The notes under the pieces: generated by a model
Database searches by the model: none
What the model was told of the DNA's origin: nothing
The model's input: only the letters and a program-made list of their open reading frames with translations
Shown: positions 1,513-37,671 of the stretch, in pieces
Layout: each line of letters opens with the position of its first letter
How positions within the stretch are numbered: position 1 is the first letter of the stretch
Program-made: the position numbers and the translations under genes
NCBI RefSeq assembly: GCF_012274265.1
Contig: NZ_JAANYY010000002.1
Span: forward strand, 186,001-250,000
Length of the DNA: 64,000 bases
Reading direction: 5' to 3'
Origin: Sphingopyxis microcysteis
GTDB lineage: Bacteria; Pseudomonadota; Alphaproteobacteria; Sphingomonadales; Sphingomonadaceae

Positions 1513-1522
1513 AAGCGGCAGA

Positions 1523-2248: not shown

Positions 2249-2276
2249 ACAAGTTGAATCTGATTCGAGGTAGACC

Positions 2277-2453: not shown

Positions 2454-2462
2454 TGCCGTAGA

Positions 2463-2495: not shown

Positions 2496-2499
2496 AAAA

Positions 2500-11075: not shown

Positions 11076-11076
11076 C

Positions 11077-16005: not shown

Positions 16006-16009
16006 CAGG

Positions 16010-19023: not shown

Positions 19024-20016
19024 TCATGGCAGCGCAGCAAAATCAGAGCGCCTGTAGGGGTGGACCATGGCCGCAAGACCGCTCGGACTGATAACCTCAA
19101 CGCTGTCGCCCCAAGCATAAAGGTGCCAGCTCATTTCAAGGTGGCCTGACGCCTTGAAGCGTACCAGCATGGCGCCGTCATCCAGATGCTCAATCTCTTG
19201 CCTCGGATGGAATTGGAACCTTGCGGCCCGATCCGCCGCTTCAGGCGAAAATCTCCAGACCACTTCCCCATACTCGGCCTCGTGGTGATATGATCCAAAG
19301 GCACGGGTGGCATATTCTCGAAGATCGAAATCGTCCGGATAGGCGAAGATCTTCGCCTGCACCTGCGCCTCCATGATGTCTTCGACCCGGTAGTGGCGAT
19401 AGCGCCCGTCACGCTTGGCCGTATCGATGCCGACGAGATAGCGGCGAGAGCCCAAGAGCAGGCCAAGCGGTTCGATCGTTCGCCAGGTTGGCTTCGCATC
19501 CCCTCTGCCTTGGTAGTGAATTTTGAGCTCGAACGGCCCCTTGATTGCCTCCGAGATGGCGAGATCCACAGCCTCGTTCATCGACGGACGTGGGCCAGGT
19601 CTGGCAGCAAAGCCCATGGCTTCGAGCAGAGCTTCCTCATCAGTCGCCAGACGAAGGGTTCGATCGCTGGGAATTAGAGCCCTGACTTTGCGCTCAAGGC
19701 TGCGCAGCTGGATAGCCTCGCCGTTCATGTCGACCCGCTCGAGTTCGCTGATCGCGGACTTGAGGCTTACAAGTTCTTCTGCAGATGGGGTAAGAAGTGG
19801 CGCGACAGCCCGAGACGGCAGGCGCCAATAGTGTCGGCCGTCGTCACCCACATAGTGTTCGGTCGCAGGAAACGCCTCTTCGAGAGCCGCGATCATGCGC
19901 TGTGCCGTCCGCCGGACGCCGCCGAATTCTGCTTCCACATCACTGAGACAAACCCCCTGTCGGGACGTGGCCATCATTGCGAGGCGCAAGAGATCCACCG
20001 CCTTGGCAAATGACAT
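19024..20016 (-). CDS. WYL-domain transcriptional regulator of the defence island
   Basis: A 330-residue protein starting at ATG 20016 (MSFAKAVDLLRLAMM), chosen because GGGGGAG lies 7-8 bases upstream; the open frame runs further upstream without a comparable ribosome site. Residues 1-70 form a winged helix (GVCLSDVEAEFGGVRRTAQRMIAALEE). Residues about 160-250 are the WYL domain (LKIHYQGRG, EPLGLLLGSRRYLVGID, RHYRVEDI), followed by a WCX-like C-terminal region. Proteins of this build (BrxR, CapW) repress BREX, CBASS and other defence operons and bind inverted repeats near their own promoters. It lies 65 bp before the DISARM-like operon on the same strand and is divergent from the 20092 gene. 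The palindrome at 20030-20044, 13 bp before its start, is the likely autoregulatory operator. Confidence 0.88.
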   Translation of the reverse strand: MSFAKAVDLLRLAMMATSRQGVCLSDVEAEFGGVRRTAQRMIAALEEAFPATEHYVGDDGRHYWRLPSRAVAPLLTPSAEELVSLKSAISELERVDMNGEAIQLRSLERKVRALIPSDRTLRLATDEEALLEAMGFAARPGPRPSMNEAVDLAISEAIKGPFELKIHYQGRGDAKPTWRTIEPLGLLLGSRRYLVGIDTAKRDGRYRHYRVEDIMEAQVQAKIFAYPDDFDLREYATRAFGSYHHEAEYGEVVWRFSPEAADRAARFQFHPRQEIEHLDDGAMLVRFKASGHLEMSWHLYAWGDSVEVISPSGLAAMVHPYRRSDFAALP

Positions 20017-20029: not shown

Positions 20030-20044
20030 TGACAGTTTCTGTCA
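20030..20044. promoter_or_regulatory. 15-bp palindrome, candidate WYL operator 1
   Basis: TGACAGTTTCTGTCA is a perfect inverted repeat (6-bp arms, 3-base centre) in the 75-bp gap between the divergent WYL gene and the 20092 gene. It differs in only two positions from the palindrome at 25416. Binding by the WYL protein is inferred. Confidence 0.65.
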
Positions 20045-20091: not shown

Positions 20092-20358
20092 ATGTTTACG
20101 CACCACGCCGAAGCCCGCATGCAGCAGCGCGCGATTTCTCATCAGGCCGTCGATGCCCTGATGGCCTACGGAGAGTATCGTCGTCATCGTGGCGCCGAGG
20201 TTTGCTATCTCACCCGGCAAAGCCGGTCCCGCATGCTCAAGGACATGGGCAAATCGGCGTTTCTCAAGCTGGAAAAGGCGCTCGATGCTTACCTCGTGGT
20301 AGGCGATGACGGAGCAATCATTACTGCGGCACATCGCCATCATCGACTTAAATTCTGA
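20092..20358 (+). CDS. Small DUF4258-like protein
   Basis: An 88-residue protein (MFTHHAEARMQQRAIS at the start) with the pattern H-x-x-A-R-M-x-Q-R-x-I followed by a helix and a C-terminal beta region ending in HRHHRLKF. This resembles DUF4258 proteins, small RelE/BrnT-like folds that sometimes act as toxins or toxin-derived partners. AAGGG stands 12 bases before the ATG. It is divergent from the WYL gene across the palindromic operator and is 77 bp before the SNF2 gene, so it may head that operon. No separate antitoxin is visible; the WYL protein could serve as its transcriptional brake. Family assignment is from a weak motif. Confidence 0.6.
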   Translation: MFTHHAEARMQQRAISHQAVDALMAYGEYRRHRGAEVCYLTRQSRSRMLKDMGKSAFLKLEKALDAYLVVGDDGAIITAAHRHHRLKF

Positions 20359-20369
20359 TGGTTTACTCC

Positions 20370-20387
20370 GCGGTCAGACTTGACCGC
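20370..20387. repeat. Perfect 7-bp inverted repeat before the SNF2 gene
   Basis: GCGGTCA-GACT-TGACCGC lies in the 77-bp gap between the 88-residue gene and the SNF2 gene. It could be an attenuating hairpin or an operator. No T-tract follows. Confidence 0.35.
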
Positions 20388-20435
20388 CAAGGTGCGCTTC
20401 GAACAAATTTGTGACTCGGAATTAGGGGGACGACT

Positions 20436-23400
20436 TTGCAACCTGGTACGCGCGTTCGGCTCAAAGGTGATCCGTCCTCGATTGGCGTGATCACGACGAA
20501 GCCGCCATTGGAGCGGGCCGGACGCACCTTCATCGAGATTGAACTGCCTGCGGGACGCAGAACTGTACCTCTTATCGAACTCGAGGAAGTTCCAGAAACA
20601 GCCAACGCATTGGCCGACTTCGCATCAGGCAAGCTCTCCGGCCCAGACGATTTGCGGCGGACCCTGACGCACATGCGCATGACCGGCAAGCTCGCTGACA
20701 TCATCTACAGCATCGGCGCGACAAACACCGAATTTCATGCCTACCAGTTCAAGCCGGTCCTGAAGCTGCTCAATTCGCCGTCACGTGGCGTGCTGATCGC
20801 CGACGAGGTGGGTCTCGGTAAGACAATCGAGGCGGGCCTCATATGGACCGAGCTGGTTGCACGATTCGACAGCCGCAGATTGCTGATCGTCTGCCCCAAA
20901 CCCCTGACAGAAAAGTGGCGCGAAGAGCTCCGCTCAAAGTTCAATGTCGATGCCCGCATCTGCGATGCAGCCGACCTCTTGGACCGAATCAAGGACGATC
21001 AGGTCAGGCGCGAGGGCTTTGCCGCGATCGCCTCGATCTCGGCAATCCGGCCGCCGAAGAACTGGAACAATCCCGATGAACCCGCCAAGGGGCCGCGAGC
21101 AGAGCTCGCACGCTACATGGCCGATGCTGAGGAAGAGCTGTTCGACCTCGCTGTGTTCGACGAGGCGCATCACCTCCGCAACACTGAAACGCTCAATCAT
21201 AAGCTTGGGCAAATGGTGAGCGAGGCGTCCGACTATTCGGTTTTCCTCTCGGCGACACCAATCAATCTGCGGGCAAACGACCTTCGCGCGATCCTCAAGC
21301 TGATCGATCCCGAAACGTTCGAGCGCGAGTGGCTTTTCGACGTCTTGCAGGCTGAGAACGCTCCGATGATCGCGGCCTGGGAAGCCGCGCGCGATCCGCG
21401 GACATCGATGGGTGACCTCATCAAATTGGTGGATGAGCTGCCGGAAGGCCAGGTGCTCAAGACCGGGGGGCGCCTCAAGCGCCTGCGCCATGAACTCGCG
21501 CAGGGGATGGAGGATACGCCGGCCAATCGGGTGGCAGTGGCAGCCCGCATCGAGGAAATGTCGCTGCTGGGCTCGCTTATCAACCGCACGCGCCGGCGCG
21601 ATGTCGCCGAGTTTCGCGTGGAGCGGCGTCCCCAGGCTCCGCGCTGGGAGATGTCCGATACCGAGCGAGACTTTTACGATGCCGCTACGCAACGGATCGA
21701 GGAGTACGCCTACACCCACGACATCAACGAGCGGTTCCTGCTTGCCCAAACCCAGCGCTTTCTCGCTTCGAGCTTGCCTTCAGCCTACCGTCACTGGGGC
21801 GAGCGCAGCGGCTCACTCGACCTCGATGAGGAAGAGGATGACCGCCCGCCGTCGAAAGTTCCTGGCCCCCTGATCCAGGCGCTCGGCGAGATTTGCGACG
21901 ATCCCGCCATCCTCAAGGAGCTTGAAGCCTCCGACACCAAATTTGCGCGATTGGTCGAATGGCTCGGCCGTGTCCGTGAGGCAGACGGTGATCAACGCAT
22001 CATCGTCTTCTCCAGCTTCCGCCGGACAATCTCGTACCTCGCTCGTCGCCTCAAAGCCGCTGGTTTTGGCGTGATGGAACTGCACGGCGGTATCAAGGAC
22101 GATCGCCAGGCGACGATTGCGCGCTTTGCCGATTCACCCGGCGGGACCATCCTGCTGACTTCGGAAGTCGGCGGTGAAGGCCTCGACCTTCAGTTCTGCC
22201 GCATCCTTTTCAACTGGGATCTCCCCTGGAACCCGATGAAGGTCGAGCAGCGCATCGGTCGTATTGATCGTATCGGCCAGCGATCCCCGTCGATCGAGAT
22301 CATCAATTTGATCGCCGCCGAAACAATCGAGGAGCAGGTGTACAATCGGCTCTACGAGCGCTTGGGCATCATTCGTGAAGCCCTCGGGGATTTCGAGCCG
22401 ATCCTGGGCGACATCATCCGCGACATCGAACTGGTTCTCACCGATCCGGAGCTCAGCCCCGACCGGCGGGCTGCAGAGCTCGATCGTGCCACCCAGGCTG
22501 CTGAACAGCGTAAGCGCGAGAGCGACGAACTTGAACGCGAAGCACCGGGTCTGGTCGCCCATGGCGATAGCATCCTTCAGAAGATCAAGGATGCTCAGGC
22601 ACCCTACAAGCGGCTGACCGGCGATGATTTGCGGGACTATGTGTCCGCTGTCTTGACGCACAGCTATCCCGGCACACGGATTGAGCCGATCGCGAACCTC
22701 GACATCGACGCCTACGACATCCGCTTGTCACCGAAAGGGCAGGCCGACTTCGAACGCTACCGTTCGCAACACATCCGCCGCTACCCCACGCGCTTCAGCC
22801 GTGACGCTGCGAGTGGGGTGAAAGTCATATTCGGGAGCAATCCCGAGCCCTTGCGCTATCGTGCGCTAGAAGCAGTTCCGATGACCCACCCGTTGGCGAG
22901 GTTTTGTGCGCGGATTCTTGATGATCGACAGGCAGGGATGGCTCCGCGCCCGGCTACTGCGTTCCATATTCCCAAGCCTGCCGGACTGAAACTCAAGGCG
23001 GGCACCTATGCTGTGGCTGTCCAGCGCTGGTCGATTGACGGGCTCTTGCCGATTGATCGTTTGACCTTTCTGGGCGTGAACCTGTCGACGCAGACCATTG
23101 TCCCGGAAGACGATGCAGAACGCCTTCTCATGGAGGCGCTCGCCGCCGCGCCGCGTTTGCATGGCCTCGATCCGGCCGAGCGCGATTCAGCCAGCGCGGT
23201 GATCTCGGATAGGCTTCTGCCGTCGCTCGAGGCCATGTGGGACGACTTTCAGCAGGCGACCGCCGCCGATCACTATGACCGCGTCGAGACGCAACGCGCG
23301 CTGATTGTCGAACATAAGGAGCGCAGGCGCCGCGAAGCCGAGAGCAGGATCCGGGATCTGCGGCTGACCGGCGGCGATGGACGCATGCGCATTGCCCTTC

Positions 23401-23537
23401 TTGAGCAAGGCAAGCTCAACAAGTTCCTCGCCCGAATGGACGTCAAGTTGGACGAGATCGCCGAGCGAGAAAGGCGACTGACGTTCGAGGAGCCCATCCT
23501 CGCAGGCATTGCGCTCATTAAAGTTGGGGGGCGGTGA
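20436..23537 (+). CDS. SNF2-family helicase of the second defence block
   Basis: A 1033-residue SF2 helicase, starting at TTG 20436 with AGGGGGA 5 bases upstream; no better start exists nearby. Residues 1-55 form a Tudor/SH3-like barrel (GTRVRLKGDPSSIGVI). Motifs: Walker A IADEVGLGKTIEAGL (near 130), FDEAHHLRN (DEAH at 242-245), FLSATPINLRA (near 275), then SEVGGEGLDLQFC and QRIGRIDRIGQRS (near 605). The C-terminal 350 residues are helical and charged and may contact partners. Overall it resembles DrmD/RapA-type translocases but is only distantly like the DrmD-like gene at 16010. It overlaps the Hsp70-like gene by 4 bases, so the two are translationally coupled and probably work together. Confidence 0.85.
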   Translation: MQPGTRVRLKGDPSSIGVITTKPPLERAGRTFIEIELPAGRRTVPLIELEEVPETANALADFASGKLSGPDDLRRTLTHMRMTGKLADIIYSIGATNTEFHAYQFKPVLKLLNSPSRGVLIADEVGLGKTIEAGLIWTELVARFDSRRLLIVCPKPLTEKWREELRSKFNVDARICDAADLLDRIKDDQVRREGFAAIASISAIRPPKNWNNPDEPAKGPRAELARYMADAEEELFDLAVFDEAHHLRNTETLNHKLGQMVSEASDYSVFLSATPINLRANDLRAILKLIDPETFEREWLFDVLQAENAPMIAAWEAARDPRTSMGDLIKLVDELPEGQVLKTGGRLKRLRHELAQGMEDTPANRVAVAARIEEMSLLGSLINRTRRRDVAEFRVERRPQAPRWEMSDTERDFYDAATQRIEEYAYTHDINERFLLAQTQRFLASSLPSAYRHWGERSGSLDLDEEEDDRPPSKVPGPLIQALGEICDDPAILKELEASDTKFARLVEWLGRVREADGDQRIIVFSSFRRTISYLARRLKAAGFGVMELHGGIKDDRQATIARFADSPGGTILLTSEVGGEGLDLQFCRILFNWDLPWNPMKVEQRIGRIDRIGQRSPSIEIINLIAAETIEEQVYNRLYERLGIIREALGDFEPILGDIIRDIELVLTDPELSPDRRAAELDRATQAAEQRKRESDELEREAPGLVAHGDSILQKIKDAQAPYKRLTGDDLRDYVSAVLTHSYPGTRIEPIANLDIDAYDIRLSPKGQADFERYRSQHIRRYPTRFSRDAASGVKVIFGSNPEPLRYRALEAVPMTHPLARFCARILDDRQAGMAPRPATAFHIPKPAGLKLKAGTYAVAVQRWSIDGLLPIDRLTFLGVNLSTQTIVPEDDAERLLMEALAAAPRLHGLDPAERDSASAVISDRLLPSLEAMWDDFQQATAADHYDRVETQRALIVEHKERRRREAESRIRDLRLTGGDGRMRIALLEQGKLNKFLARMDVKLDEIAERERRLTFEEPILAGIALIKVGGR

Positions 23538-25408
23538 GCATGGGAAAGAAGGGGCAGACATTCGGATCGTTTGCTGACGCAGCCGAGGCTTTGAAGAAAC
23601 TCAAGGGCGCGCCCGGCGCTGCTCAGCACCGGCGGATCGACCCGCGAGCAAAGCCCAATCACTCCCATACAAACGGGTTTGCCGATGTCGAGGCAGCCAT
23701 GAAGAGCAAGGCCGAAGGTCAGGTCGCAAGCGCGCCGCCGAAAGCCAAGCGTCAGGAGTTTGAGGTTCGGCCGACTGGCCGCGGACGATCCAAAGTCGTT
23801 CCGGTCGAGACGGCGGCGCCTCTCCCGCATCAAATCAAGGCCGGTTTGCTACCCAAGCGGCCTCTCGACGAACGCAAGAAGCCCGAACTTTCCTCGCCCA
23901 TCGCCATGCAGGGGCCGCCCGCCGCTTCGCCCCCGCCAACGGTTGAAGCCGCCAATGGAAAGAAGGCTGGTAACGGGCAGGCTCGATTGCCACTCCTTCC
24001 TAATCTCATCGTCGCCAAGCCAAAACGGGTCCCGCATCCGGTCGAAAGCACACCCGCAGTCCCGGTAGCCCCTCCACCACCGCCGCCGCCAACGACCAAA
24101 CAGCTCATTGAGCGAATTCGAGTGCTGTTCGGCGAGGCACCGCCTCCGATAGAGACGCGGCCGCAGCGCACTCTCCCCTGGGTTCGGACCGGCGTCGAAG
24201 AGTGCATTGCGCTCGGCTCCGAGCTCATTCGGGCAAAGCCGGAGCCTGACCACTCAGGGTACATCATAGGCTGCGACTTCGGGACGAGTTCAATCAAGCT
24301 TGCCGTTCGCCAGCCTTACCGGGCGGGCAATCCGACCGCCGCACGACCTGCACCCAATTTGCTGCAATCGAACCGGCATCCCTATTTGTGGCAGAGCGTG
24401 ATCTGGTTTTCGCCAGATTCTGAGGAATTCTCCCTTCTGCCCGGCAAGGGCAAGGTGGCACTGGAAGGCTTCAAGGCAGGCATTCTCGCCGGTGGCGGCG
24501 GCAAGCGCATTCTGCCGGACTTGGCGGTCACGCGAAACGAAGCCGCGGCAGCGTTCCTGGCGCTGCAGCTGGCCCATTGCCTGGGATGGTACGAGAAGAC
24601 CCAGCCGCTGGGGGGCGACGCAACCAGAAATTTCCTGGCCATCAACATCGGCATTCCCGTTGCCGCCCAGGATGATACCAAGACCTACCGGGATTTCAGG
24701 CACATTGTCAGCGCCGCGCGTGCCCTTATGCCGCACGCGACCTGCCTCACCCACAGCAAGGTTCGAGAATGCTATCAGGCCTCGACGCATGACTTGCCGG
24801 CGGGCTTTGACCTCGTACCCGAACTGACCGCGGCGATCTCAGGCTACGCCAACGAGCCGTTTGCCAGAGATGGCGCTCATATCCTCATCGACGTCGGAGC
24901 ATCCACGCTCGACGTAGTAGCGTTTAACCTCGTCAATCGCGAGCGCGTCGCGGCCTTTGCCGCCGAGGTGAAGCTGCTCGGTGCCGCAGCACTTGAAGCT
25001 GCCCGAAGTGACGGATTTCCAGACGATTTGTTTCGGCGGGCATGCATCGAGCAGTACGATCAGGTCTTCAATTACGCGCGGCATCCCCGCGTTGCTCCGC
25101 GCAATTTCGATGCAACCCTGCGCCGCAATCCTGTGCAGCTCATGGCGATCGGTGGCGGTTGCAAGACCGCGGTGCACAAGGAATTTATTGCTCGGGTACA
25201 CCCCACACTTGGCGATCTAAAGCTCATGCACCCAAGCCCTCCCGCGCAGATGACGAGCATTAAATGCGATACCTCCCGACTGCTCCTGGCCTATGGCCTT
25301 ACCTCGGATATTCCCGAGCAGCTCGAACTGCGCCGACCGTCGGAGATACCGCTGATCAATGATCAGCAGAGCGCCCCGATCTCTTTCATCTCGAAGGATG
25401 ATGTTTAA
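23534..25408 (+). CDS. Hsp70/actin-like ATPase with disordered proline-rich N-terminus
   Basis: About 624 residues from GTG 23534, which overlaps the previous stop (GTGA); an ATG at 23540 has better spacing from the GGGGGG run and may be the true start. Residues 1-210 are low complexity, rich in Lys, Pro and Ala, with a run of seven prolines near 180. The ATPase follows: phosphate-1 loop IIGCDFGTSSIKLAVR near 247, NIGIPVAA near 372, phosphate-2 loop ILIDVGASTLDVVAF near 452 and an adenosine-type segment LMAIGGGCK near 537. There is no C-terminal Hsp70 substrate domain, so it is an Hsp70/FtsA/MreB-like nucleotide switch and not a full chaperone. Coupling to the SNF2 gene suggests a regulatory or scaffold role. 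Confidence 0.75.
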   Translation: MSMGKKGQTFGSFADAAEALKKLKGAPGAAQHRRIDPRAKPNHSHTNGFADVEAAMKSKAEGQVASAPPKAKRQEFEVRPTGRGRSKVVPVETAAPLPHQIKAGLLPKRPLDERKKPELSSPIAMQGPPAASPPPTVEAANGKKAGNGQARLPLLPNLIVAKPKRVPHPVESTPAVPVAPPPPPPPTTKQLIERIRVLFGEAPPPIETRPQRTLPWVRTGVEECIALGSELIRAKPEPDHSGYIIGCDFGTSSIKLAVRQPYRAGNPTAARPAPNLLQSNRHPYLWQSVIWFSPDSEEFSLLPGKGKVALEGFKAGILAGGGGKRILPDLAVTRNEAAAAFLALQLAHCLGWYEKTQPLGGDATRNFLAINIGIPVAAQDDTKTYRDFRHIVSAARALMPHATCLTHSKVRECYQASTHDLPAGFDLVPELTAAISGYANEPFARDGAHILIDVGASTLDVVAFNLVNRERVAAFAAEVKLLGAAALEAARSDGFPDDLFRRACIEQYDQVFNYARHPRVAPRNFDATLRRNPVQLMAIGGGCKTAVHKEFIARVHPTLGDLKLMHPSPPAQMTSIKCDTSRLLLAYGLTSDIPEQLELRRPSEIPLINDQQSAPISFISKDDV

Positions 25409-25415
25409 CCCGGGG

Positions 25416-25430
25416 TGACAGATTTTGTCA
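25416..25430. promoter_or_regulatory. 15-bp palindrome, candidate WYL operator 2
   Basis: TGACAGATTTTGTCA has perfect TGACA/TGTCA arms around a 5-base centre, and its first six bases and last five match operator 1. It lies in the 80-bp gap before the DUF2779 gene, that is, at the head of the second half of the block. Confidence 0.6.
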
Positions 25431-25488
25431 TCCAACAGTGCTAGAGTGCACGCTGGGCATTGGGAATGAGGGGGCATGACGTAGTTCA

Positions 25489-26976
25489 ATGAGTTCTGGC
25501 AGCCGGAAGTTCGGCCTTTCCAAATCTAAGATCACCTCCTTCGAGCAGTGCCCGAAGCGATTGTGGCTGCAGACGCATCGGCCTGACCTTGCAGAGCTCG
25601 ATGCAGGTGCTGAGGCGCGCTTCGCTGCTGGTCATGAAGTTGGGGACGCTGCCTGTTTACTGTGCTCCGGCGGCATTATGATCGAGGCCGAGCCGGACCT
25701 TGCCGCTGCGCTTCAGCGGACCCAGGAACTCACGTCCGCATCAGCTCAAGACCCGCTGTTCGAAGCTACCTTTGCCCACGATGGTGTGCTCGTTCGCGTC
25801 GATATCATGGAACCCGACGGGCTTGGGGGCTGGCACGTGGCCGAAGTGAAGAGTTCGACGAGCCGCAAGGATTATCATGTCGCCGACCTAGCGACCCAGC
25901 TCTGGGTGCTGCGTGAGGCCGGGGTCCAGGTGAGTTCGGCCGCCATCCGGCATCTCAACAACCAGTTCTTCCTGACGGAGGAAGGAAACTACCACGGCGC
26001 ATTCGTGGATACGCCATCTCTGGAGGATGCCAAGCCGATCGCCCTCAAGCGCCCAAAGTTGGTCGCTGAAATCAGGTCTGTCCTTGATGGCGAAGAGCCC
26101 GCTCGCGATCCCGGCGGTCATTGCCATGATCCTTTCCCGTGCGAATTTGTGGCCTATTGCTCGCGCGATCTGGAAACGGCGCGATATCCGATCTCCTCGC
26201 TGCCCCGGACAGGCAAGCAGCTAGCGGCCAAGTGGGCCGAACATGGCATTGCCGAGCTCAAGGACGTGCCGGCTGGCAGCTTCACCAATGCCGTTCACGC
26301 GAGAATTCACGAGGCTGTCTTGTCCGGCGTCGCCTACCACGACGTCGACGGAGCGCGGCGGATCGTCGAAGATTGGACATTTCCTCGAACCTATCTCGAT
26401 TTCGAGACGATCGCCTTTGCCTTGCCTCGCTGGCTCGGAACGAAACCCTGGGAACAAGTCCCCTTTCAATTTTCAGCCCACATCGAAGATTGCGAAGGGC
26501 AGGTCACTCATCGTGAGTTCTTAAGCCTGGATGGCAAAGATCCTCGTCGCGCCTGCGCCGAGGCACTGGTGGCCCAGATCCCCCAGGATGGGACCGTCAT
26601 CGCGTATAATGCAGCCTTCGAGCGGACATGCATCCTCCGGCTGGCGGAGCGGTTTTCGGATCTCGCCGACGATCTCAAGGCGATCGCAGCGCGCATTGTT
26701 GATCTTCTGCCGGTTACCCGCGAGCACTGGTACCACCGCGATCAGGGCGGCAGTTGGTCTATCAAGGCTGTCCTGCCGACCATCAGCAATAGCGGCGACT
26801 ATGCCATGCTGGACGTCTCGGATGGCTCCGCGGCACAGCTCGCCTATCTCGAAGCAATTGCACCAGCGACCTCCGAGGCCCGAGTAGCTGAGCTAGCGCA
26901 ATCGCTTAGGACTTACTGTGCCAAAGACACATACGCCATGATCGAGGTGCTTTGGCATCTCATTGGCGCGAAATAG
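25489..26976 (+). CDS. DUF2779 protein: Cas4-like PD-(D/E)XK nuclease plus DEDD-type exonuclease
   Basis: A 495-residue protein. The N-terminal half is a Cas4/RecB-like nuclease: SKITSFEQCPKRLWL at 10-25, then catalytic-type LVRVDIME (near 104) and HVAEVKSS (near 122), and further Cys residues (CHDPFPCEFVAYC, 212-224) fitting an iron-sulfur cluster. The C-terminal half has an RNase H-fold exonuclease pattern: YLDFETIAF near 304, VIAYNAAFERTC near 370 and YCAKDTYAMIEVLW near 480. This two-part layout is DUF2779. Both active sites look complete. It follows the palindromic operator and precedes the McrB-like gene by 48 bases. A role in degrading or processing invader DNA ends is inferred. The ribosome site before ATG 25489 is poor. 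Confidence 0.8.
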   Translation: MSSGSRKFGLSKSKITSFEQCPKRLWLQTHRPDLAELDAGAEARFAAGHEVGDAACLLCSGGIMIEAEPDLAAALQRTQELTSASAQDPLFEATFAHDGVLVRVDIMEPDGLGGWHVAEVKSSTSRKDYHVADLATQLWVLREAGVQVSSAAIRHLNNQFFLTEEGNYHGAFVDTPSLEDAKPIALKRPKLVAEIRSVLDGEEPARDPGGHCHDPFPCEFVAYCSRDLETARYPISSLPRTGKQLAAKWAEHGIAELKDVPAGSFTNAVHARIHEAVLSGVAYHDVDGARRIVEDWTFPRTYLDFETIAFALPRWLGTKPWEQVPFQFSAHIEDCEGQVTHREFLSLDGKDPRRACAEALVAQIPQDGTVIAYNAAFERTCILRLAERFSDLADDLKAIAARIVDLLPVTREHWYHRDQGGSWSIKAVLPTISNSGDYAMLDVSDGSAAQLAYLEAIAPATSEARVAELAQSLRTYCAKDTYAMIEVLWHLIGAK

Positions 26977-27024
26977 ACAGCGCCCATTTCACCGATCCAT
27001 TTAAAGATTTTTGAGAAAGCACAG

Positions 27025-29904
27025 ATGCAAGAAGCCGAATTTCGAGAGTGGATCGCGAAGAAGGGAGGTTCCCCCTCCACGCAAAACACGCGAGTGCAAG
27101 ACGCGAAGCGCGTAGAAGCGCATTATGGCGACCTTGACGAAGCCTTCGACGCTGATGGTCTCGAAGGCTTCAAGGCCGCACTTGCCTATTCTAAGGCCGA
27201 CGAACGTGCCGGTCGGGAAAACCCGGCTCGCTTTCCGATCGATGGCAATCTTTATGCGAACCTCTCGCACTATCGCTCGACGCTTAACGATTACGCTCAG
27301 TTCCGCTCAGGGACTGCGGGTGACGCATTCGACAGTGTCGATGCCGAGAAGCGCATCGCACTCTTTGATGATTCCAGAACGGTTCACTGGCCCATTCGCC
27401 AAACCAACCGGCAGTCGGGGGTCAAAGCGTTCCGGATCATGGGCGCCTCGAACAAAACTGAAGATGCCATTGAAACCGACGATGTCTTGGCGGTGGCTCG
27501 GGCTCTGCTCAAGGAGCAGCGTCTGGTCCGGGTGCTGCGGTCCAACAACGGCCGGCGGCCCTATCTGGGATACGGCAAACAGAAACTGACTTCCTATGAA
27601 ATCGACCCAGAGATTGCCCGAGCTCTGGGCATTCCCGCGAAGGGTTCAATTCACGGGAATGACCTGATCCTCGACGCCGCCGTGCTTGCGGACCTCAAGG
27701 CTCGTTTCCTGCGGACCTATCCCGATTTTGAACCGGAAGGATTTGCCGGTGCGACCTCGCAAGTTTTCAGCGATGTCATCAACTACAAGCGGGAGGCGAT
27801 CGCCAAGGTTGCGGCGCTCCTGCAGTCAGAGCCGCCGCTGGCGCCCGAGGCGCTGGGCGGCGCCTTGTTCGACATCCTGACGGGTATCGATCTTCCCGGT
27901 TGGCGGACCAACAACCGTCTCGCCGCCATTCGCCAGCAGCATCCGAATGTTCTCGAACTGGCAGCAGCCCAATTGGCCCGCTCAAGCGATGACCCGCCGG
28001 CGGCGGCTAAACAAATGGTCGACGCGATCTGGCCCGTCCTTCTGGAGGGCCAAGAGAAGAGCAAGCCCTACTCGGAGAGCCGCAATATCCCGTCGATGTT
28101 CCTGGCGCTGGTCAGACCGCGCGATGCCCTGGGCATCAACACCGACCCGCTCTCGAGGGCCTATAAGGCTTTGGTTCACAAGCCGCTGTTCGGCTGGAGC
28201 CCGCTGTCAGCCGAAGAATATGCCGAAGTGCTCCGCTTCGCGCACAAGCTCTACGAGGAAATGGCCGGTTGGGGATGGCAGCCCCGAGACCTGTGGGACG
28301 TCCAGAGCTTCCTCTGGGTCGTGAGCCAGGAAGACCAAGCTGCCGATGCAACGCAAGAAATTTCAGAAATGAGGCCAGCCATGCCGACTGCAACCAACCT
28401 GATCCTTTACGGGCCTCCGGGAACGGGAAAGACCTATGCGACAGCCGCCGAGGCCGTGGAAATCTGCAACGGTCCAGGATCGGCGCAGCTTGGCCGCAAG
28501 GAACTGATGGATGTCTATCAGTCCCTGCATCGCAAGGGGCGCATCGGCTTTGTCACGTTTCACCAGTCCTTCTCCTACGAAGAGTTCGTCGAAGGACTGA
28601 GGCCCGTCACGGGCGAGGAGAGCGACGATGGTCCGGCCAGTGGAGGGTTCAGCCTGAAGCCCCACGACGGCATCTTCAAGCAGATTGCCAATCTTGCCTC
28701 TGAAAACCGCGGCCATGCAGTCGACGCCGAGAAGCCGCTGCTCGATCGAAGCCAGAAGATCTTCAAGATGTCGCTCGGGCGAAGCTGGGCAGCAGAAGAT
28801 GACGCAATCTTTCAGGATGCAATCCGCGATGGGTACATTGTCCTGGGATATGGCGGCGACGTCGACTGGTCTGATCCCCGCTTCGACAAATGGGAAGCGA
28901 TCAAGGAACGGTGGCGCGAGGATCACCCCGAGGCGACCGGTAACGATCCCAACATGTCCCAGATGTATGCCTTCCGAATCAACATGGAGGTTGGTTCCCT
29001 AGTCGTTGTGTCAGACGGCAACCGGAAGTTCCGGGCGATTGGCGAGGTCACCGGGGGCTATCGTTTCGTGCCCGGTCCCAACGGTGAGTACAATCATCGC
29101 CGATCGGTCAAATGGCTGTGGCACTCTGATGAGAGCCTCCCGCGCGAACGCATTTACGGGAAAATCTTCAGCCAGGTTTCCGTCTACCAGCTGAACAGCC
29201 GATACATCGACTGGGACGCGCTGGAACAGATCGTCACCTCAGGTGGCGACGCGGTGGCTACCACGGGGGTTCCCGAACCCTACGTGCTCATCATCGACGA
29301 GATCAACCGCGCGAATATTTCGAAGGTCTTCGGTGAGCTCATCACCTTGCTCGAGCCGGACAAGCGGATCGGCGAGGAAAACGAGCTTCGCGTGAAATTG
29401 CCCTACTCGGGCGAGATCTTCGGCGTTCCGTCGAACCTCCACATCATCGGCACGATGAACACGGCGGATCGCTCCATCGCCTTACTCGACACCGCTCTGC
29501 GCCGGCGCTTCACCTTCCGAGAGCTCATGCCGGACACCGAGGCGCTGCCTGAGGATGTCGATGGCATTGCGCTCAGAAAGCTCCTTGCCATTCTCAACGA
29601 GCGCATCGAGTATCTCTTCGACCGGGAACACCAGATCGGGCACGCCTACTTCATGGGGTGTGCGACCCGCTCCGACGTCGATGAATGCATGCGACACAAG
29701 GTAATCCCACTCCTCGCCGAGTACTTCTACGAGGACTGGTCCAAGGTCGCCGCCGTGCTTGGTGATACGACGGGCGAGCGCTTCTTGGAACGACGGGAAC
29801 TGAAGGCCCCCAACGGCCTCGACTCCGATGGCGACGCTCCAGCTCGCTGGCGCTGGCAGGTCCGGCAGCCGTTTGCAGACGACGCCTACAAGGGCTTTGC
29901 GTGA
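27025..29904 (+). CDS. mcrB: McrB-type AAA+ NTPase with inserted EVE-like domain
   Basis: A 959-residue protein. Residues 1-420 are a long N-terminal region of no family that I can name, likely for DNA or partner binding. The McrB motor follows: Walker A LYGPPGTGKTYAT near 462, TFHQSFSYEEFVEGLRP near 512, then Walker B VLIIDEINRANISKVFGEL near 755 and sensor GTMNTADRSIALLDTALRRRF near 812. Between Walker A and B lies an extra block of about 170 residues (570-740) with GYIVLGYGGDVDWSD, RINMEVGSLVVVSDGNRKFRAIGEV and a final YIDW, which reads as an EVE/PUA-like modified-base reader. The stop overlaps the start of mcrC by 4 bases. It should form a GTP- or ATP-driven ring feeding the McrC nuclease. 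Confidence 0.88.
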   Translation: MQEAEFREWIAKKGGSPSTQNTRVQDAKRVEAHYGDLDEAFDADGLEGFKAALAYSKADERAGRENPARFPIDGNLYANLSHYRSTLNDYAQFRSGTAGDAFDSVDAEKRIALFDDSRTVHWPIRQTNRQSGVKAFRIMGASNKTEDAIETDDVLAVARALLKEQRLVRVLRSNNGRRPYLGYGKQKLTSYEIDPEIARALGIPAKGSIHGNDLILDAAVLADLKARFLRTYPDFEPEGFAGATSQVFSDVINYKREAIAKVAALLQSEPPLAPEALGGALFDILTGIDLPGWRTNNRLAAIRQQHPNVLELAAAQLARSSDDPPAAAKQMVDAIWPVLLEGQEKSKPYSESRNIPSMFLALVRPRDALGINTDPLSRAYKALVHKPLFGWSPLSAEEYAEVLRFAHKLYEEMAGWGWQPRDLWDVQSFLWVVSQEDQAADATQEISEMRPAMPTATNLILYGPPGTGKTYATAAEAVEICNGPGSAQLGRKELMDVYQSLHRKGRIGFVTFHQSFSYEEFVEGLRPVTGEESDDGPASGGFSLKPHDGIFKQIANLASENRGHAVDAEKPLLDRSQKIFKMSLGRSWAAEDDAIFQDAIRDGYIVLGYGGDVDWSDPRFDKWEAIKERWREDHPEATGNDPNMSQMYAFRINMEVGSLVVVSDGNRKFRAIGEVTGGYRFVPGPNGEYNHRRSVKWLWHSDESLPRERIYGKIFSQVSVYQLNSRYIDWDALEQIVTSGGDAVATTGVPEPYVLIIDEINRANISKVFGELITLLEPDKRIGEENELRVKLPYSGEIFGVPSNLHIIGTMNTADRSIALLDTALRRRFTFRELMPDTEALPEDVDGIALRKLLAILNERIEYLFDREHQIGHAYFMGCATRSDVDECMRHKVIPLLAEYFYEDWSKVAAVLGDTTGERFLERRELKAPNGLDSDGDAPARWRWQVRQPFADDAYKGFA

Positions 29905-31208
29905 TCCGGCGATCGCTCCTCGAATGGCAATCGCTCGCTTATGGCGAGGGTGAGGAATGCATCCCTGAATGGGCAGCAGACAGGCTTGTCGCCGTTGCGC
30001 GCCGCTCTCCTTTGGCCGGCAAGAATGGCAAGGGAATCCTGGAGCATGGCCGGCATTCCCTTGGGGCGCGTCAGGTCGTGGGCGTGATTGTCGCTGATGG
30101 GTGTGCGCTGGAGATCCTGCCCAAGATCGATGCGAAGCCTTCAGCGAGCGATCCCGACAATCGCGGCTACTTACGGGATCGCCTGGTGCATATGCTGGCC
30201 GTCGCGCTCGATCTGGAAATCGACAGCGGGACGTTGACGGCGCTTGGCTCTCAACGCGACACATTGCTTGAAGTCCTGATCGGGCTGTTTTCCCGAAAGC
30301 TCGCCGACGCCCTGCGTCAGGGCATGCCGCGTCGCTACATGGCCTGCGAGGATGAATTGCCCGCGCTTCGCGGCCGACTTGATGTTGCGCGACAGTTTAC
30401 GCGTCTCGCCGCTTCGCCGCAGCGTCTCGCTTGCCGTTTCGACGAGCTGTCGCCTGAAACTCCGCTCAATCAGATCATGAAAGCCGCTGTTTCCCGGTTG
30501 CTGCGCGTTTCGAACAATGCGGATAACCAGCGCAGGCTGGCCGAGCTGGGCTTCGCCTATGCCGACATTGCCGATGTTCCGGTAAGCGGGTTGCGCTGGG
30601 ATGACGTGCATCTCGATCGCACCAACGCGCGCTGGAAAGAGCTGATCACCTTAGCCCGGCTTCTTCTCGGCGACCGGTTCCAGACGAGTTCGATGGGCCG
30701 GCAGGACGGCTTTTCCCTTCTTTTTGAAATGAATACTCTTTTCGAGGAGTATGTCGGGCGCCTGCTCAAGCGCGCGCTCTCGGGCACAGGATTTAGCGTC
30801 AGCCTTCAAGGTGGACGTCTCTTTTGTCTCGAGAATGAGACCGACGGCCGGCAGGTGTTTCAGACGAGGCCCGATATCCTGGTGAAGCGTGGCAACGAGG
30901 TCGTGCAGATTATAGACACCAAGTGGAAGCGGATTTCCTCCCGGATCGATGATCCCAAGCAGGGGGTCTCCCAGGCCGACGTCTATCAGATGATGGCCTA
31001 TGGTCAGATCTACCACTGCAACTGCCTCAGTCTGCTCTATCCGCATCACTTCGCACTGGCTGACAGCCCTGGTGCTCTGGCTTCGCACCGGATCGGCGCG
31101 GATCAGGCCCGGCTCCACACGATGAGCGTCGAACTCGGCTCCCGGCAGGCCGTCATCCAACAATTACGGCAGCTCACGCTCGAGTTTGCCGAAGCTGAAG
31201 TGTGCTGA
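29901..31208 (+). CDS. mcrC: McrC-type nuclease subunit
   Basis: A 435-residue protein from GTG 29901, overlapping the mcrB stop (GTGA). The N-terminus (RRSLLEWQSLAYGE, then VGVIVADGCALEILPKID) is the McrC arm that touches the McrB ring. Central FSRKLADALRQGMPRRY and CRFDELSPETPLNQIMKAA are typical of the family. The C-terminal PD-(D/E)XK site is clear: RPDILVK near 325 and QIIDTKWKRI near 338, giving D...D-x-K. McrC cuts DNA when the McrB motor stalls at or meets a target. Here targets are presumably chosen by the EVE-like insert of McrB and the unknown N-terminal domain. Confidence 0.9.
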   Translation: MIRRSLLEWQSLAYGEGEECIPEWAADRLVAVARRSPLAGKNGKGILEHGRHSLGARQVVGVIVADGCALEILPKIDAKPSASDPDNRGYLRDRLVHMLAVALDLEIDSGTLTALGSQRDTLLEVLIGLFSRKLADALRQGMPRRYMACEDELPALRGRLDVARQFTRLAASPQRLACRFDELSPETPLNQIMKAAVSRLLRVSNNADNQRRLAELGFAYADIADVPVSGLRWDDVHLDRTNARWKELITLARLLLGDRFQTSSMGRQDGFSLLFEMNTLFEEYVGRLLKRALSGTGFSVSLQGGRLFCLENETDGRQVFQTRPDILVKRGNEVVQIIDTKWKRISSRIDDPKQGVSQADVYQMMAYGQIYHCNCLSLLYPHHFALADSPGALASHRIGADQARLHTMSVELGSRQAVIQQLRQLTLEFAEAEVC

Positions 31209-31226
31209 GTTTTCGGGGACTAAATC

Positions 31227-34200
31227 GTGCAAATTCAAAATGGAACGCCGCGCCTCAGCGCTACCGATCTGGTCGGATATCTGAACTGCCGGCACTTGAC
31301 CCAGTTGGAACATGCGGCAGCGCGCGGTAAGCTTTCACGTCCGAAATTCTTCGATCCCGCGCTCGAGGCGCTCTGGGAGCGCGGCAAGCAGCACGAACTG
31401 GCCTATGTGGACCATCTGCGCGCCCAAGGCCTTTCATGCGTCGTGGTTGAAGGCGTGGACGTCAGCGACGAGGCCGTCGCTCAAACAATCGCCGCCATGC
31501 GGGCGGGCGTTGACGTGATCGTCCAGGGCGCGCTGCGAGGCGGATCCTGGGCAGGCCGTGCCGACATTCTGCAGCGCGTCGATACGCCAAGCGACCTTGG
31601 CGATTGGTCCTATGAAGCTGCCGACACCAAGCTCGCCCGGGAAACGAAGGGCGGCACCGTCCTTCAGCTCTGCCTTTACTCCGAGCTCATTGGCGAAGTG
31701 CAAGGCACCATGCCGATCTTCGCCAGCGTCATCCCGCCCTGGACCGACTTTGCACCGGAGCGGTATCGGCTTGCCGATTTCGCCGCCTATCATCGTCAGG
31801 TGAAGCAGGGATTGCTCGGAGCGATCGGAACCGACAAGCCCGCACAGACCTACCCGGAGCCGACGTCAAACTGTGACATCTGCAATTGGAGCACGCGCTG
31901 CGACAAGCAACGCCGGGATGACGATCACCTTTGCCTTGTGGCGGGCATCTCCTCAATGCAGATCGCAGAGCTCAAGGATCACGGCGTCACCACGGCAACG
32001 GCGCTGGCGGAACTGCCGGTGCCCCTGCAATGGAAGCCGGAGCGTGGCTCGAAAGAATCTCTGACCCGCGTCCGCGAGCAGGCTAGGATCCAGCTTGAAA
32101 CCAGAGTCAGTGGCGAACTGCGCTACGAACTGCTGGCGCCGGTGGCAGGTTTCGGCCTCAATTGCCTACCTGAGCCTTGCGAGGGCGATATCTTTCTAGA
32201 CTTCGAGGGGGATTCCTTCGTTGGCCAGCATGGGCTGGAATATCTCCTGGGCTTCCACTTCCGCGAGAAGGGTGAGCCACAGTACCGCGGGCTGTGGGCG
32301 CTTGACCGTGCCGGCGAGAAGGCAGCCTTCGAGACATTCATCGATTTCGTGCTCGAGCGGAAGAAGGTCTTCCCGCAGCTCCATGTCTATCACTACGGCG
32401 GATACGAGCCGGGCGCGCTGAAACGGCTGATGGGACGATATGGTACGCGCGAAGACGAACTGGATTCGCTGCTGCGTGGTCTCGTGTTCGTCGATTTGCT
32501 GAGCGTTGTCCGGCATTCGCTGCGTGCGGGCGTCGAGAGCTATTCCATCAAGAAGCTCGAGCCGCTTTACGGCTATGTTCGTGACGCAAGCCTTCCCGAT
32601 GCGAACCTTGCGCTTAACCGGCTGCAGGTGAGCCTCGAACTGAACGACGCGGCGGGAATTCTGCCGGAGGATAAGCAAACCGTCGAAGCCTACAACCGCG
32701 ACGACTGTGTCTCGACCGAGGCTCTGCGCGATTGGCTGGAGGCCGAACGCAGCAAGCTCATCGATCGAGGCATCGAGTTTACGAGACCGGAGCCAGGGGA
32801 AAGCGGACCGAGCGAAGGCCTTTCCGAATGGCTGGAGCGGATCACGCCGCTAATTGAGCAGCTGACTGTCGATGTCCCGGTCGATCCGGAAGAGCGCACC
32901 TCCGAGCAGCATGCGCGCTGGCTTCTTGCCAATCTTCTCGAGTGGCATCGCCGCGAGGAAAAGGCGACCTGGTGGGAATACTTCCGCCTCTGTGATCTGT
33001 CCGCGGAGGAGCTCCTCGATGAGCGGGCAGGTCTCGCTGGCCTCACCTACCTTGAAACGGTGGGGGGCACAGCCAAATGCCCCATCGACCGCTACAGCTT
33101 TCCGGTCCAGGAAGCCGATATTCGAGCAGGTAAAGGGCTCAGAGCGCAGGGCGGCCAGACCTTGGGGACCGTTGAGGATATCTCACGGGAACAGCGCACA
33201 ATCGACATCAAGAAGAGTTCGGCAATGGCGGCGGAACACCCTGCTGCAGTCTTTGTCCACGAGCATGTCCCGTCAAAGCCGATGCAGGAGGCACTCGTCA
33301 GGCTCGCAACATACGTGTGTGAGAACGGCATGGCTGAGGGGAAAGCCTACCAGGCGGCACGAGACATGCTGATGCGGGTGGCTCCGCGCATTGCAGAGGG
33401 CAGCCCAGTTCGGCTTGAAAAAGAAAAGCCACTCGATGCCGGTGTGCGTATCGCCCCTCTGATCTCAGCAGGCGTATTGCCGATCCAAGGCCCCCCAGGC
33501 ACCGGCAAGACCCACACGGGTGGGCACATGATTTGCGAGCTTGTCCGCCAAGGCAAGAAGGTCGGGATCGTGGCCAATGGTCACGAGGTGATCCGCAATC
33601 TCATGAACAAAGTCATTGATGTCGCTGAGGAGACCAATACCCCCCTGGTCTGTATCCAGAAGCCGAAGGCCGGGTCCAAAGAGGACGCAACCGAGCGGCT
33701 GCGGTTCGCGAAGAAGAGCAATGCGGAGGTCTTCGCCGCGCTCAAAGCGGATTGCAGCGTCGCAGGAGGAACAGCATGGCTGTGGTCGACAGAGGATGCC
33801 TTCGAAAGTCTCGACGTTCTCTTTGTCGACGAGGCCGCGCAGATGTCGCTGGCGAATGTGCTTGCCGTTTCGCAGGCGGCCAAAACGCTGGTTCTGCTTG
33901 GAGACCCTCAACAGCTTGACCAGCCCATGCAAGGCAGCCATCCGGACGGCACCGGCTGCTCTGCGCTCGACCACCTGCTCTCGGGCAAGCAAACCATCGC
34001 ACCTGACGAAGGCCTGTTTCTGGACGTCACCTGGCGACTGCATCCGGAGATCTGTGCGTTCACATCCGAACTCTTTTACGAGGGCAAGCTCGGGGCAAAG
34101 GCAGAAGCAGCCGGGCAGCGGGTCAACGCGAACGGGATCGCCAATGGCACGGGTCTGAGGTTTCTACCCGTCGAGCATTCCGGCAATCAGAATTGCTCGT

Positions 34201-34625
34201 CCGAAGAGGCTGACGTTATCGCCGAACTGGTCTCCGACATACTGGCACAAGGTGCGACCTGGATCGATCGCGAGGGGAACGAAAAGCCGCTTGGGATCGC
34301 GGACATACTGATCATCGCCCCGTACAATGCGCAGGTGTTCGAGATCCAACGTCGCCTACCCCAGGCGCGGGTCGGGACGGTCGATAAGTTCCAGGGCCAG
34401 GAGGCGCCGATCTCGATCTATTCGCTCGCCAGCTCTTCGCATGCTGATGCGCCGCGCGGGATGGAATTCCTCTACAGTCTCAACCGCTTGAACGTTGCGA
34501 CCTCACGCGCGAAATGCGTAACCATCCTCGTGGGATCGCCAAAAGTTTTTGAGGCCGAATGCCGGACGCCTCGTCAGATGCAGCTCGCGAATGCCTTCTG
34601 CCGGTATCTTGAACTGAGTTCATGA
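31227..34625 (+). CDS. TM0106-type RecB-like nuclease fused to SF1 (Dna2/Upf1-like) helicase
   Basis: A 1132-residue protein from GTG 31227, with CGGGGA about 8 bases upstream. Residues about 8-245: Cas4/RecB-like nuclease (SATDLVGYLNCRHLTQLEH, YEAADTKLARE near 134) with clustered Cys (CDICNWSTRC near 216). Residues about 310-500: RNase H-fold exonuclease (IFLDFEGDSF, VYHYGGYEPGALKRL, YNRDDCVSTEALRDWL). Residues about 740-1130: SF1B helicase, Walker A IQGPPGTGKTHTGG near 752, FVDEAAQMSLANVL near 865, LGDPQQLDQPM, VDKFQGQEAPI near 1052 and LNVATSRAK near 1090. This is the TM0106 family architecture. It follows mcrC by 18 bases and ends the block. With the DUF2779 gene it gives the system two Cas4-plus-exonuclease proteins. 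Confidence 0.85.
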   Translation: MQIQNGTPRLSATDLVGYLNCRHLTQLEHAAARGKLSRPKFFDPALEALWERGKQHELAYVDHLRAQGLSCVVVEGVDVSDEAVAQTIAAMRAGVDVIVQGALRGGSWAGRADILQRVDTPSDLGDWSYEAADTKLARETKGGTVLQLCLYSELIGEVQGTMPIFASVIPPWTDFAPERYRLADFAAYHRQVKQGLLGAIGTDKPAQTYPEPTSNCDICNWSTRCDKQRRDDDHLCLVAGISSMQIAELKDHGVTTATALAELPVPLQWKPERGSKESLTRVREQARIQLETRVSGELRYELLAPVAGFGLNCLPEPCEGDIFLDFEGDSFVGQHGLEYLLGFHFREKGEPQYRGLWALDRAGEKAAFETFIDFVLERKKVFPQLHVYHYGGYEPGALKRLMGRYGTREDELDSLLRGLVFVDLLSVVRHSLRAGVESYSIKKLEPLYGYVRDASLPDANLALNRLQVSLELNDAAGILPEDKQTVEAYNRDDCVSTEALRDWLEAERSKLIDRGIEFTRPEPGESGPSEGLSEWLERITPLIEQLTVDVPVDPEERTSEQHARWLLANLLEWHRREEKATWWEYFRLCDLSAEELLDERAGLAGLTYLETVGGTAKCPIDRYSFPVQEADIRAGKGLRAQGGQTLGTVEDISREQRTIDIKKSSAMAAEHPAAVFVHEHVPSKPMQEALVRLATYVCENGMAEGKAYQAARDMLMRVAPRIAEGSPVRLEKEKPLDAGVRIAPLISAGVLPIQGPPGTGKTHTGGHMICELVRQGKKVGIVANGHEVIRNLMNKVIDVAEETNTPLVCIQKPKAGSKEDATERLRFAKKSNAEVFAALKADCSVAGGTAWLWSTEDAFESLDVLFVDEAAQMSLANVLAVSQAAKTLVLLGDPQQLDQPMQGSHPDGTGCSALDHLLSGKQTIAPDEGLFLDVTWRLHPEICAFTSELFYEGKLGAKAEAAGQRVNANGIANGTGLRFLPVEHSGNQNCSSEEADVIAELVSDILAQGATWIDREGNEKPLGIADILIIAPYNAQVFEIQRRLPQARVGTVDKFQGQEAPISIYSLASSSHADAPRGMEFLYSLNRLNVATSRAKCVTILVGSPKVFEAECRTPRQMQLANAFCRYLELSS

Positions 34626-34670
34626 AATTGCAGCCGAACATCGCTTGGCACCCGGGATTTTGTGTGTCAG

Positions 34671-34713
34671 AATCGCTACATTAAGCCCGGAAATCTGGGA
34701 TAATGTAGCGATT
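34671..34713. terminator. Long perfect hairpin after the defence block
   Basis: AATCGCTACATTA and TAATGTAGCGATT form a perfect 13-bp stem around a 17-base loop that itself holds CCC...GGG. TTTG follows on the plus strand. It lies 46 bases after the last gene of the block, a good position for a terminator. The stem is AT-rich for one, and it could instead be a protein-binding or recombination site. Confidence 0.55.
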
Positions 34714-34745
34714 TTGAAGCAGTATTTCTTCTGAATGGGTGCCTC

Positions 34746-34952
34746 ATGTTGAAGCCATCTGACGACCCTACTGCGACCGAGGACTGGAAGGGCCTCAGAG
34801 AGCTTGATCGAGCCATCGCAGAAGATCGTCTAACTGCCTACACGTGGAAGAAAACCTGGGCTGACCCTTGGGGGCGCATCAAGCTGATCGCCATCTTCGT
34901 CGGCCTCACTGCTTTTGCGGCATTCGTTGTCATCAACGATCTGATCCTCTGA
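34746..34952 (+). CDS. Small single-pass membrane protein, unknown
   Basis: A 68-residue ORF: a charged N-terminus (EDWKGLRELDRAIAEDRL), a Trp-rich stretch (TWKKTWADPWGR) and a C-terminal transmembrane helix (LIAIFVGLTAFAAFVVI). It has only a weak ribosome site (GGGTG). It lies between the defence block hairpin and the convergent traG. Small membrane proteins of this kind in transfer regions can be entry-exclusion or accessory factors, but nothing in the sequence shows that. It may not be expressed. Confidence 0.5.
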   Translation: MLKPSDDPTATEDWKGLRELDRAIAEDRLTAYTWKKTWADPWGRIKLIAIFVGLTAFAAFVVINDLIL

Positions 34953-34954
34953 TC

Positions 34955-37657: not shown

Positions 37658-37671
37658 GGATTGTCTCGCCT

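Follow-up and report, generated by a model that had tools for sequence, protein, structure and literature searches.

Organization of the two-cassette locus

The 64,000-nt stretch of contig NZ_JAANYY010000002.1 of Sphingopyxis microcysteis analysed here (the window, at its full length) contains a candidate defence block, in which the open reading frames (ORFs) of six large genes and of a small DUF4258 gene at their head all lie on the plus strand (Table 1). The block consists of two separable cassettes: cassette 1 is a gene pair encoding an SNF2 motor and an Hsp70-like ATPase, and cassette 2 encodes, in this order, a DUF2779 protein, McrB, McrC, and a TM0106 protein. The original prediction, made from the letters of the window, had described six large genes of one strand in two coupled groups, with overlaps of 4 bases at two junctions and a near-identical palindrome beside each half. 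This layout was confirmed; the two palindromes (TGACA-N5-TGTCA, at 20030 and 25416) are identical at 13 of 15 positions and are the only exact sites of this kind in the window. The domain assignments made there (SNF2, Hsp70-like, DUF2779, EVE-McrB/McrC, and TM0106) were likewise supported by domain, motif, and fold evidence, while its bounds, 20092..34625, include neither the WYL gene nor the adjoining ARMADA Type II operon. A DUF4258 gene was also seen ahead of SNF2 in several relatives. The inverted repeat at 34667..34717 was not called in a terminator scan, and no tRNA border was found within the 64-kb window.

Table 1. Features of the plus-strand block, its candidate operators, and its borders in the window
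Feature	Position	Strand	Evidence or remark
WYL/WCX transcription factor	19024..20016	-	WYL and WCX domains; start 20016 inferred from 330-aa relatives
Palindrome 1, TGACAGTTTCTGTCA	20030..20044	.	Candidate WYL operator, between WYL and DUF4258
DUF4258 small protein, heads cassette 1	20092..20358	+	PF14076 25.6 bits, cut-off 25
SNF2/DrmD-like motor, first gene of the pair	20436..23537	+	Domain matches; Walker A, DEAH
Hsp70-fold ATPase (624 aa) without substrate-binding domain, orphan family	23534..25408	+	Predicted structure
Palindrome 2, TGACAGATTTTGTCA	25416..25430	.	Candidate WYL operator, heads cassette 2
DUF2779 protein: Cas4-like nuclease and predicted 3'-5' exonuclease	25489..26976	+	Domain matches, motifs
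McrB GTPase, NxxD (NTAD) type, YTH/EVE-like insert between Walker A and Walker B	27025..29904	+	Domains, motifs, fold
McrC nuclease, PD-(D/E)xK motif	29901..31208	+	PF10117 248.1 bits; RPDILV...IIDTKWK
TM0106/COG2251 RecB-like nuclease, RNase_H_2 exonuclease, and SF1 helicase	31227..34625	+	TIGR03491 236.2 bits, PF13482, PF13087; motifs present
17-nt inverted repeat, possible terminator, between the convergent TM0106 and TraG genes	34667..34717	.	94% complementary
Neighbour outside the block: ARMADA Type II-like operon ArmA-ArmB-ArmC-ArmD, behind the same WYL gene	2500..18958	-	
Neighbour: TraG, TraH, TraF, TraN (F-type conjugation apparatus), right border of the block	34955..41649	-	PF07916; PF06122, PF13728, PF06986

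The SNF2 and Hsp70-like genes form a conserved pair

The SNF2 gene adjoined the Hsp70-like gene in 34 of 34 distinct loci, a number that counts places and not independent events, because several records are short (L025 and L032) or near duplicates (L015/L016/L053, L017/L024, and L020/L045). These loci were the window, 24 loci from a contig scan drawn with two peptide patterns, L039, L040, L043, and L045, and the five plasmid records L053-L057; L041 was taken as the same place as L023 and L044 as the same place as L019, L058-L064 repeat counted places, L065-L067 are weaker SNF2 matches, and the plasmid match H2 stands outside the count. The SNF2 gene is cut by the contig end in L009 and L025. 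Taxa reached by the contig scan extended from sphingomonads to SAR116, Desulfocapsaceae, and KSB1 records, and the gene order of the pair was reversed in Leptolyngbya. Among 397 genomes of the family, the Hsp70-like gene was present in 7, and SNF2 matches below 1e-250 occurred in the same 7 (Fisher p 1.9e-13 without the own genome); three weaker SNF2 matches (31-32% identity) fell in other genomes of the 397. The distances of the two proteins were correlated as well (mirror-tree r 0.965, Mantel p 0.0002, 23 dereplicated rows, L025 left out).

Run with PADLOC, the defence-system finder check proposed in the original prediction gave a DrmD-type match for the SNF2 protein (735.4 bits, model PDLC02623) and none for the Hsp70-like protein of the window at an E-value of 1e-3. 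The SNF2 protein also matched one PADLOC model labelled DrmA at 174.6 bits, far under the DrmD score, and with 399.5 bits it stayed under the NCBIfam DrmD cut-off of 610. Its motifs (Walker A, and DEAH in the window copy) were kept in the 32 aligned rows covering that part, L009, L019, and L044 having no SNF2 row in this alignment (contig end or ORF choice).

The window copy of the Hsp70-like protein had no match in Pfam or NCBIfam either, and PADLOC-DB 2023 held no model for the homologue of L029 (E-value 1e-6). In its predicted structure, an Hsp70 nucleotide-binding domain, with the fold of the Hsp70 superfamily, follows a mostly low-confidence N-terminus, and 20 residues remain behind the matched domain, which leaves the protein without a substrate-binding domain. 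The phosphate-1, phosphate-2, and adenosine motifs were recognisable across 36 aligned rows, two of which repeat places already represented, and the most distant rows had substitutions. The fold, not the sequence, carries the Hsp70 assignment, because the best E-value of the family profile against PDB sequences was only 0.67. Two protein searches with this query returned at least 110 and at least 126 relatives in overlapping lists; no listed relative had a Pfam domain, those with names were mostly called "hypothetical protein" and one "Hsp70 family protein", and the closest among the matches listed came from Sphingobium and allies. On viral contigs, 32 pattern matches were found, none of which was confirmed as a relative.

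Genes beside the pair varied and included ARMADA, BREX, Zac, a PLD pair, PDC-S68, and a methylase-DUF499 set. ARMADA-type genes were near the pair in L011, L020, and L045 (ArmD homologue only). In L029 and L030 (about 6280-11353), the pair sits between brxC and pglX of a BREX operon, as assigned by PADLOC in L029 and by similarity in L030. A recurring two-gene set, encoding a protein of 517-550 amino acids (aa) and a PLD-domain protein of 822-828 aa, was located near SNF2-Hsp70-like or TM0106 in L014 (15388-19381), L015 (11373-15468), L016, L035 (13822-17821), and L053 (13292-17387); the 517-550-aa protein had no Pfam match in L015. The left flank of L010, L012, L013, and L014 (about 1-6360) encoded a methylase, a 330-aa protein, and a DUF499 ATPase, a set that adjoins the WYL gene in L010, L012, and L013 and resembles the COG1743-DUF499-SNF2 operon of PMC7641849 (cited papers are represented here by parts of their text, to which all statements on them refer).

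The pair also occurs next to tra genes and on plasmids that were typed as conjugative, and it could therefore be a DNA-maintenance or anti-restriction helper of mobile elements, an explanation that concerns cassette 1 only and is compatible with the others discussed below. SNF2/RapA-like motors also act in transcription recycling. Such a helper role is nevertheless improbable, in fact the least probable of the explanations considered, given that the recurrent neighbours are defence systems, that the SNF2 protein scores 735 bits to the PADLOC DrmD model, and that brxC and pglX flank the pair in L029 and L030.

Proteins of cassette 2

McrB carries GPPGTGKT at 463, IIDEIN at 756, and MNTADR at 811, which represent the Walker A, Walker B, and NxxD motifs of an McrBC GTPase, and McrC possesses the McrBC domain together with the nuclease motif. 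For the insert of McrB, neither a Pfam EVE match, even at an E-value of 1, nor a PDB sequence match was obtained; the YTH/EVE-like assignment comes from fold comparison only, and in one such comparison the EVE-type entries 1zce and 2gbs had E-values of 0.09 and 0.36, respectively. Catalytic motifs were present in both the DUF2779 and the TM0106 proteins. The architecture of DUF83 (Cas4-like) plus RNase-H-like exonuclease, with an AAA tandem in COG2251 (TM0106), has been described earlier, with DUF2779 placed in a 3'-5' exonuclease clade (PMC3985635); the block proteins share this architecture, whereas an operon with McrBC was not found in the part of that paper covered.

The two cassettes are separable but associated beyond chance

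Among the 34 pair loci, TM0106 was found in 11, McrB in 8, DUF2779 in 7, and none of these in 20, within the DNA of each record; two of the 20 had weak TM0106-like matches that were not counted (L026, a 158-aa fragment of 44 bits; L057, 33 bits). The whole gene order was present in three loci (the window, L010, and L013), with L009 and L011 agreeing as far as their contigs reach, and was seen complete only in close relatives. L012 and L023 had the order SNF2-Hsp70-like-DUF2779, McrBC not being found within 10 kb, and L014 had SNF2-Hsp70-like-TM0106. In L033, a WYL gene was divergent from DUF2779 (92%), McrB (97%), McrC, and TM0106 (95%), and the genome of this locus had no Hsp70-like match at an E-value of 1e-3 and no SNF2 match at 1e-40.

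In the 397 genomes (E-value 1e-20, partial matches included), TM0106 was found in 28, McrB in 41, and DUF2779 in 20. With the own genome set aside, McrB and TM0106 occurred together in 16 genomes (Fisher p 3e-11) and lay within about 6 kb of each other in 14 of these; on the same basis, p was 2e-5 for DUF2779-McrB and 9e-5 for DUF2779-TM0106. Of the 6 genomes other than the own one that have the pair, 3 also have TM0106 (p 0.005) and 3 have McrB (p 0.015). DUF2779, although present in 7 of the 34 loci, was rejected as a partner of the pair, which it met in 1 of 6 non-own genomes (p 0.26, not significant). The union also recurred in distant, differently ordered loci: L039 had McrC-McrB-TM0106 divergent from DUF4258-SNF2-Hsp70-like with WYL in between, L040 had SNF2-Hsp70-like-TM0106-McrB-McrC on one strand, the two parts were 26 kb apart in G393, and the Aminobacter plasmid pAA03 had a divergent version (27.4% identity) with TM0106-McrB-McrC-SNF2-Hsp70-like on one strand. 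Thus, the union of the pair with TM0106-McrBC exceeds chance.

The original prediction had taken the six genes as one system and had proposed a co-occurrence search asking whether the parts are usually found apart. In this search, unity failed, as 20 of 34 loci were without cassette 2 genes and L033 was without the pair, while the association survived, the union being non-random (McrB-TM0106, pair-TM0106/McrB, and pAA03). A single six-gene machine, in which the SNF2 protein and the Hsp70-like ATPase would either feed McrBC or license it and the two Cas4-like proteins would complete the destruction of the DNA, agrees with the tight coupling with overlaps, the similar palindromes, and the presence of SNF2, Hsp70-like, McrB, McrC, and TM0106 on one strand in the divergent L040 and pAA03. 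It was rejected as the principal explanation, however, because cassette 2 stands alone in L033 and in those 20 loci neither DUF2779 nor McrB nor a complete TM0106 gene was found in the DNA examined; with DUF2779 not tied to the pair and the full set confined to close relatives, it is quite unlikely.

Slightly less unlikely, though still well short of even odds, is ordinary defence-island clustering, i.e. independent systems that have gathered next to conjugation genes and are linked by shared carriage but not by function. The variable neighbours of the pair and the position of traG, which in several relatives lies next to the block or to other defence genes, fit with such clustering, whereas the above-background McrB-TM0106 and pair-TM0106 associations, the palindrome at the cassette heads, and the repeated union in different orders do not.

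A candidate WYL operator at the cassette heads

The protein encoded next to palindrome 1 has the WYL and WCX domains of a BrxR-type regulator. With at most 1 mismatch, palindrome 1 was at the same place in L010, L011, L012, L013, and L023. When the best palindrome match was sought from 150 bases upstream to 40 bases into a gene, again with at most 1 mismatch, sites were found for WYL (11 of 20), DUF2779 (7 of 12), TM0106 (8 of 25), and DUF4258 (3 of 6), 11/20 and 8/25 being values that overstate independence because of near-identical, duplicated, and twice-counted rows. Sites were found for none of the SNF2 (0/26), Hsp70-like (0/23), and McrB (0/15) genes, versus 5 of 219 control genes, the zero for SNF2 depending on the range, because one of 350 bases puts sites before SNF2 in L010, L012, L015, and L016. 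The site tends to follow the cassette head: TM0106 carries it where it is the first gene of its operon (L017, L022, and L039) but has none in the window, whose cassette 2 starts with DUF2779. In L033, sites were present at the WYL head and at the DUF2779 head alike, and with the 350-base range an exact site followed the Hsp70-like gene in L043. This distribution in relatives suggests a WYL regulon, in which the WYL protein is likely the repressor of both cassettes, given that a near-identical palindrome precedes both gene sets. One WYL repressor for two cassettes has a precedent, since BrxR, a WYL protein, represses an island of BREX and type IV systems that contains two BrxR boxes (PMC9122601).

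Several points weigh against two co-repressed defence lines. Within the tested range, no site was found for 9 of 20 WYL, 17 of 25 TM0106, and 3 of 6 DUF4258 homologues, and the SNF2 sites seen with the wider range belong here too. Some of the operator rows come from near-identical relatives, one locus is represented twice (L023/L041), and the divergent promoters of L017, L024, and L051 were counted once for each side; two of the four exact copies in the genome lie elsewhere (G000 C1:960257 and C4:51252); and promoter scans found no sigma-70-like promoter at either palindrome, just as a terminator scan called nothing there. As to the pair, 24 loci came from two peptide patterns, some being near duplicates, the SNF2 cut-off was picked after the list had been seen, and the pair may serve DNA metabolism other than defence. 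As to the union, the Fisher tests ignore shared ancestry, the pair-McrB and pair-TM0106 associations rest on 3 of 6 genomes, and defence genes cluster generally.

Proposed function

With these points considered, the locus is best explained, at a probability of about 0.6, as two separable cassettes with near-identical palindromes beside or near a WYL gene, which are likely co-repressed and would act as successive anti-phage lines, not as one machine; the arrangement itself is real and conserved and likely forms one regulon. In the mechanism that we infer, the WYL protein would repress itself and both cassettes until an infection lifts the repression. The YTH/EVE-like insert would let McrB recognise a modified base, after which McrB would move along the DNA with GTP and trigger cutting by McrC. 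TM0106, as a nuclease, 3'-5' exonuclease, and helicase, and DUF2779, as a nuclease and exonuclease, would then degrade the resulting ends, a task on foreign DNA comparable to that of RecBCD or AddAB on broken DNA. The proposed role of the SNF2 protein is that of an ATP-driven duplex motor, with its Hsp70-like partner as a nucleotide-dependent switch or loader, which may strip or remodel protein on phage DNA.

A more tentative proposal, falling a little below even odds, is that the pair represents an unnamed, widespread two-gene immune module, in which an armless Hsp70 nucleotide-binding domain would be the on/off switch of a DNA motor; it would plug interchangeably into McrBC-TM0106, BREX, ARMADA, and Zac neighbourhoods and, in sphingomonads, come under a movable WYL operator. 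If so, a chaperone-type ATPase would regularly accompany a DNA motor in defence against phages, and this outside the CoCoNuTs, the family for which Hsp70-like proteins were reported. The wiring of such islands would also become apparent, each exchangeable cassette keeping a repressor site at its head that would bring a newly gained system under local control at once.

Comparison with known systems

The claim in the original prediction that the union is not a named system was upheld in part. In the searched text of openly licensed papers, neither the SNF2-Hsp70-like pair nor its union with TM0106-McrBC was found to be described, and within this literature the pair, its recurrent union with TM0106-McrBC, and the movable operator are new. 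McrBC beside a DISARM-like, YprA-encoding cassette, however, has already been reported (PMC11090510), an observation from which PMC12458937 starts in naming ARMADA.

The block resembles canonical NxxD McrBC with EVE fusion (PMC11090510 and PMC7641849) in its NTAD-type McrB, its McrC nuclease motif, and its YTH/EVE-like insert, but adds to McrBC Type IV the TM0106 and DUF2779 nucleases in the operon and the SNF2-Hsp70-like pair behind a similar palindrome, additions not found in the covered parts of these two papers. CoCoNuTs likewise combine McrBC with Hsp70-like proteins; they have NxD GTPases, Hsp70-like units with nucleotide-binding and substrate-binding domains, coiled coils, and RNases (PMC11090510), whereas the block has an NxxD GTPase, a nucleotide-binding domain only, and an SNF2 neighbour. 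Membership of the plus-strand block in the CoCoNuTs was rejected, NTAD being NxxD and not NxD and no substrate-binding domain being present. Its SNF2 protein is of the same helicase class as the motors of DISARM (DrmD), ARMADA (ArmA), and BREX (BrxHII) (PMC12458937), but differs from them in having an Hsp70-like ATPase as partner; membership in DISARM, which is defined by DrmA and DrmB and, in Class 1, by DrmD together with a methylase, was rejected, as no DrmB-, DrmC-, or methylase-type match was found among the plus-block proteins. In the BrxR island of pEFER, one WYL repressor with two boxes serves two defence systems, similar to the regulon proposed here, although the systems differ and its boxes, described as 11-bp repeats with 5-bp spacers, were compared by description only (PMC9122601).

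Neighbouring ARMADA operon and conjugation genes

The minus strand to the left of the block encodes the WYL/WCX regulator, an SNF2 motor, a IIG/PglX-type methylase, a DruE-like (YprA-type) helicase, and a UvrD/GajB-like helicase. The best PADLOC matches of this operon were DrmD, IIG methylase/DrmMI, DruE, and UvrD/GajB, and its genes follow the order SNF2, PglX-like, YprA-like, and GajB-like, which is that given for ARMADA Type II (PMC12458937). NPPW was found in ArmB and Walker A in ArmA and ArmD; in ArmC, the strict Walker A pattern gave no match and DEMH was present.

To the right of the block lie TraG, TraH, TraF, TraN, TraC, and a TrbI-type gene, which place it next to an F-type conjugation cluster. 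In L010, L012, L013, L014, L033, L036, L037, and L045, too, a traG homologue was located close to the block or to other defence genes, and L034 had a fragment. TM0106 was the defence gene nearest to traG, being directly adjacent in the window (34625-34955), L010, L013, L033, and L034 and separated from it by two genes in L036, where BREX genes stand behind TM0106, and in L037. Beyond the conjugation genes, the window encodes a HipA-type protein (59748-61073) and a UvrD/GajB-like helicase (54614-57385).

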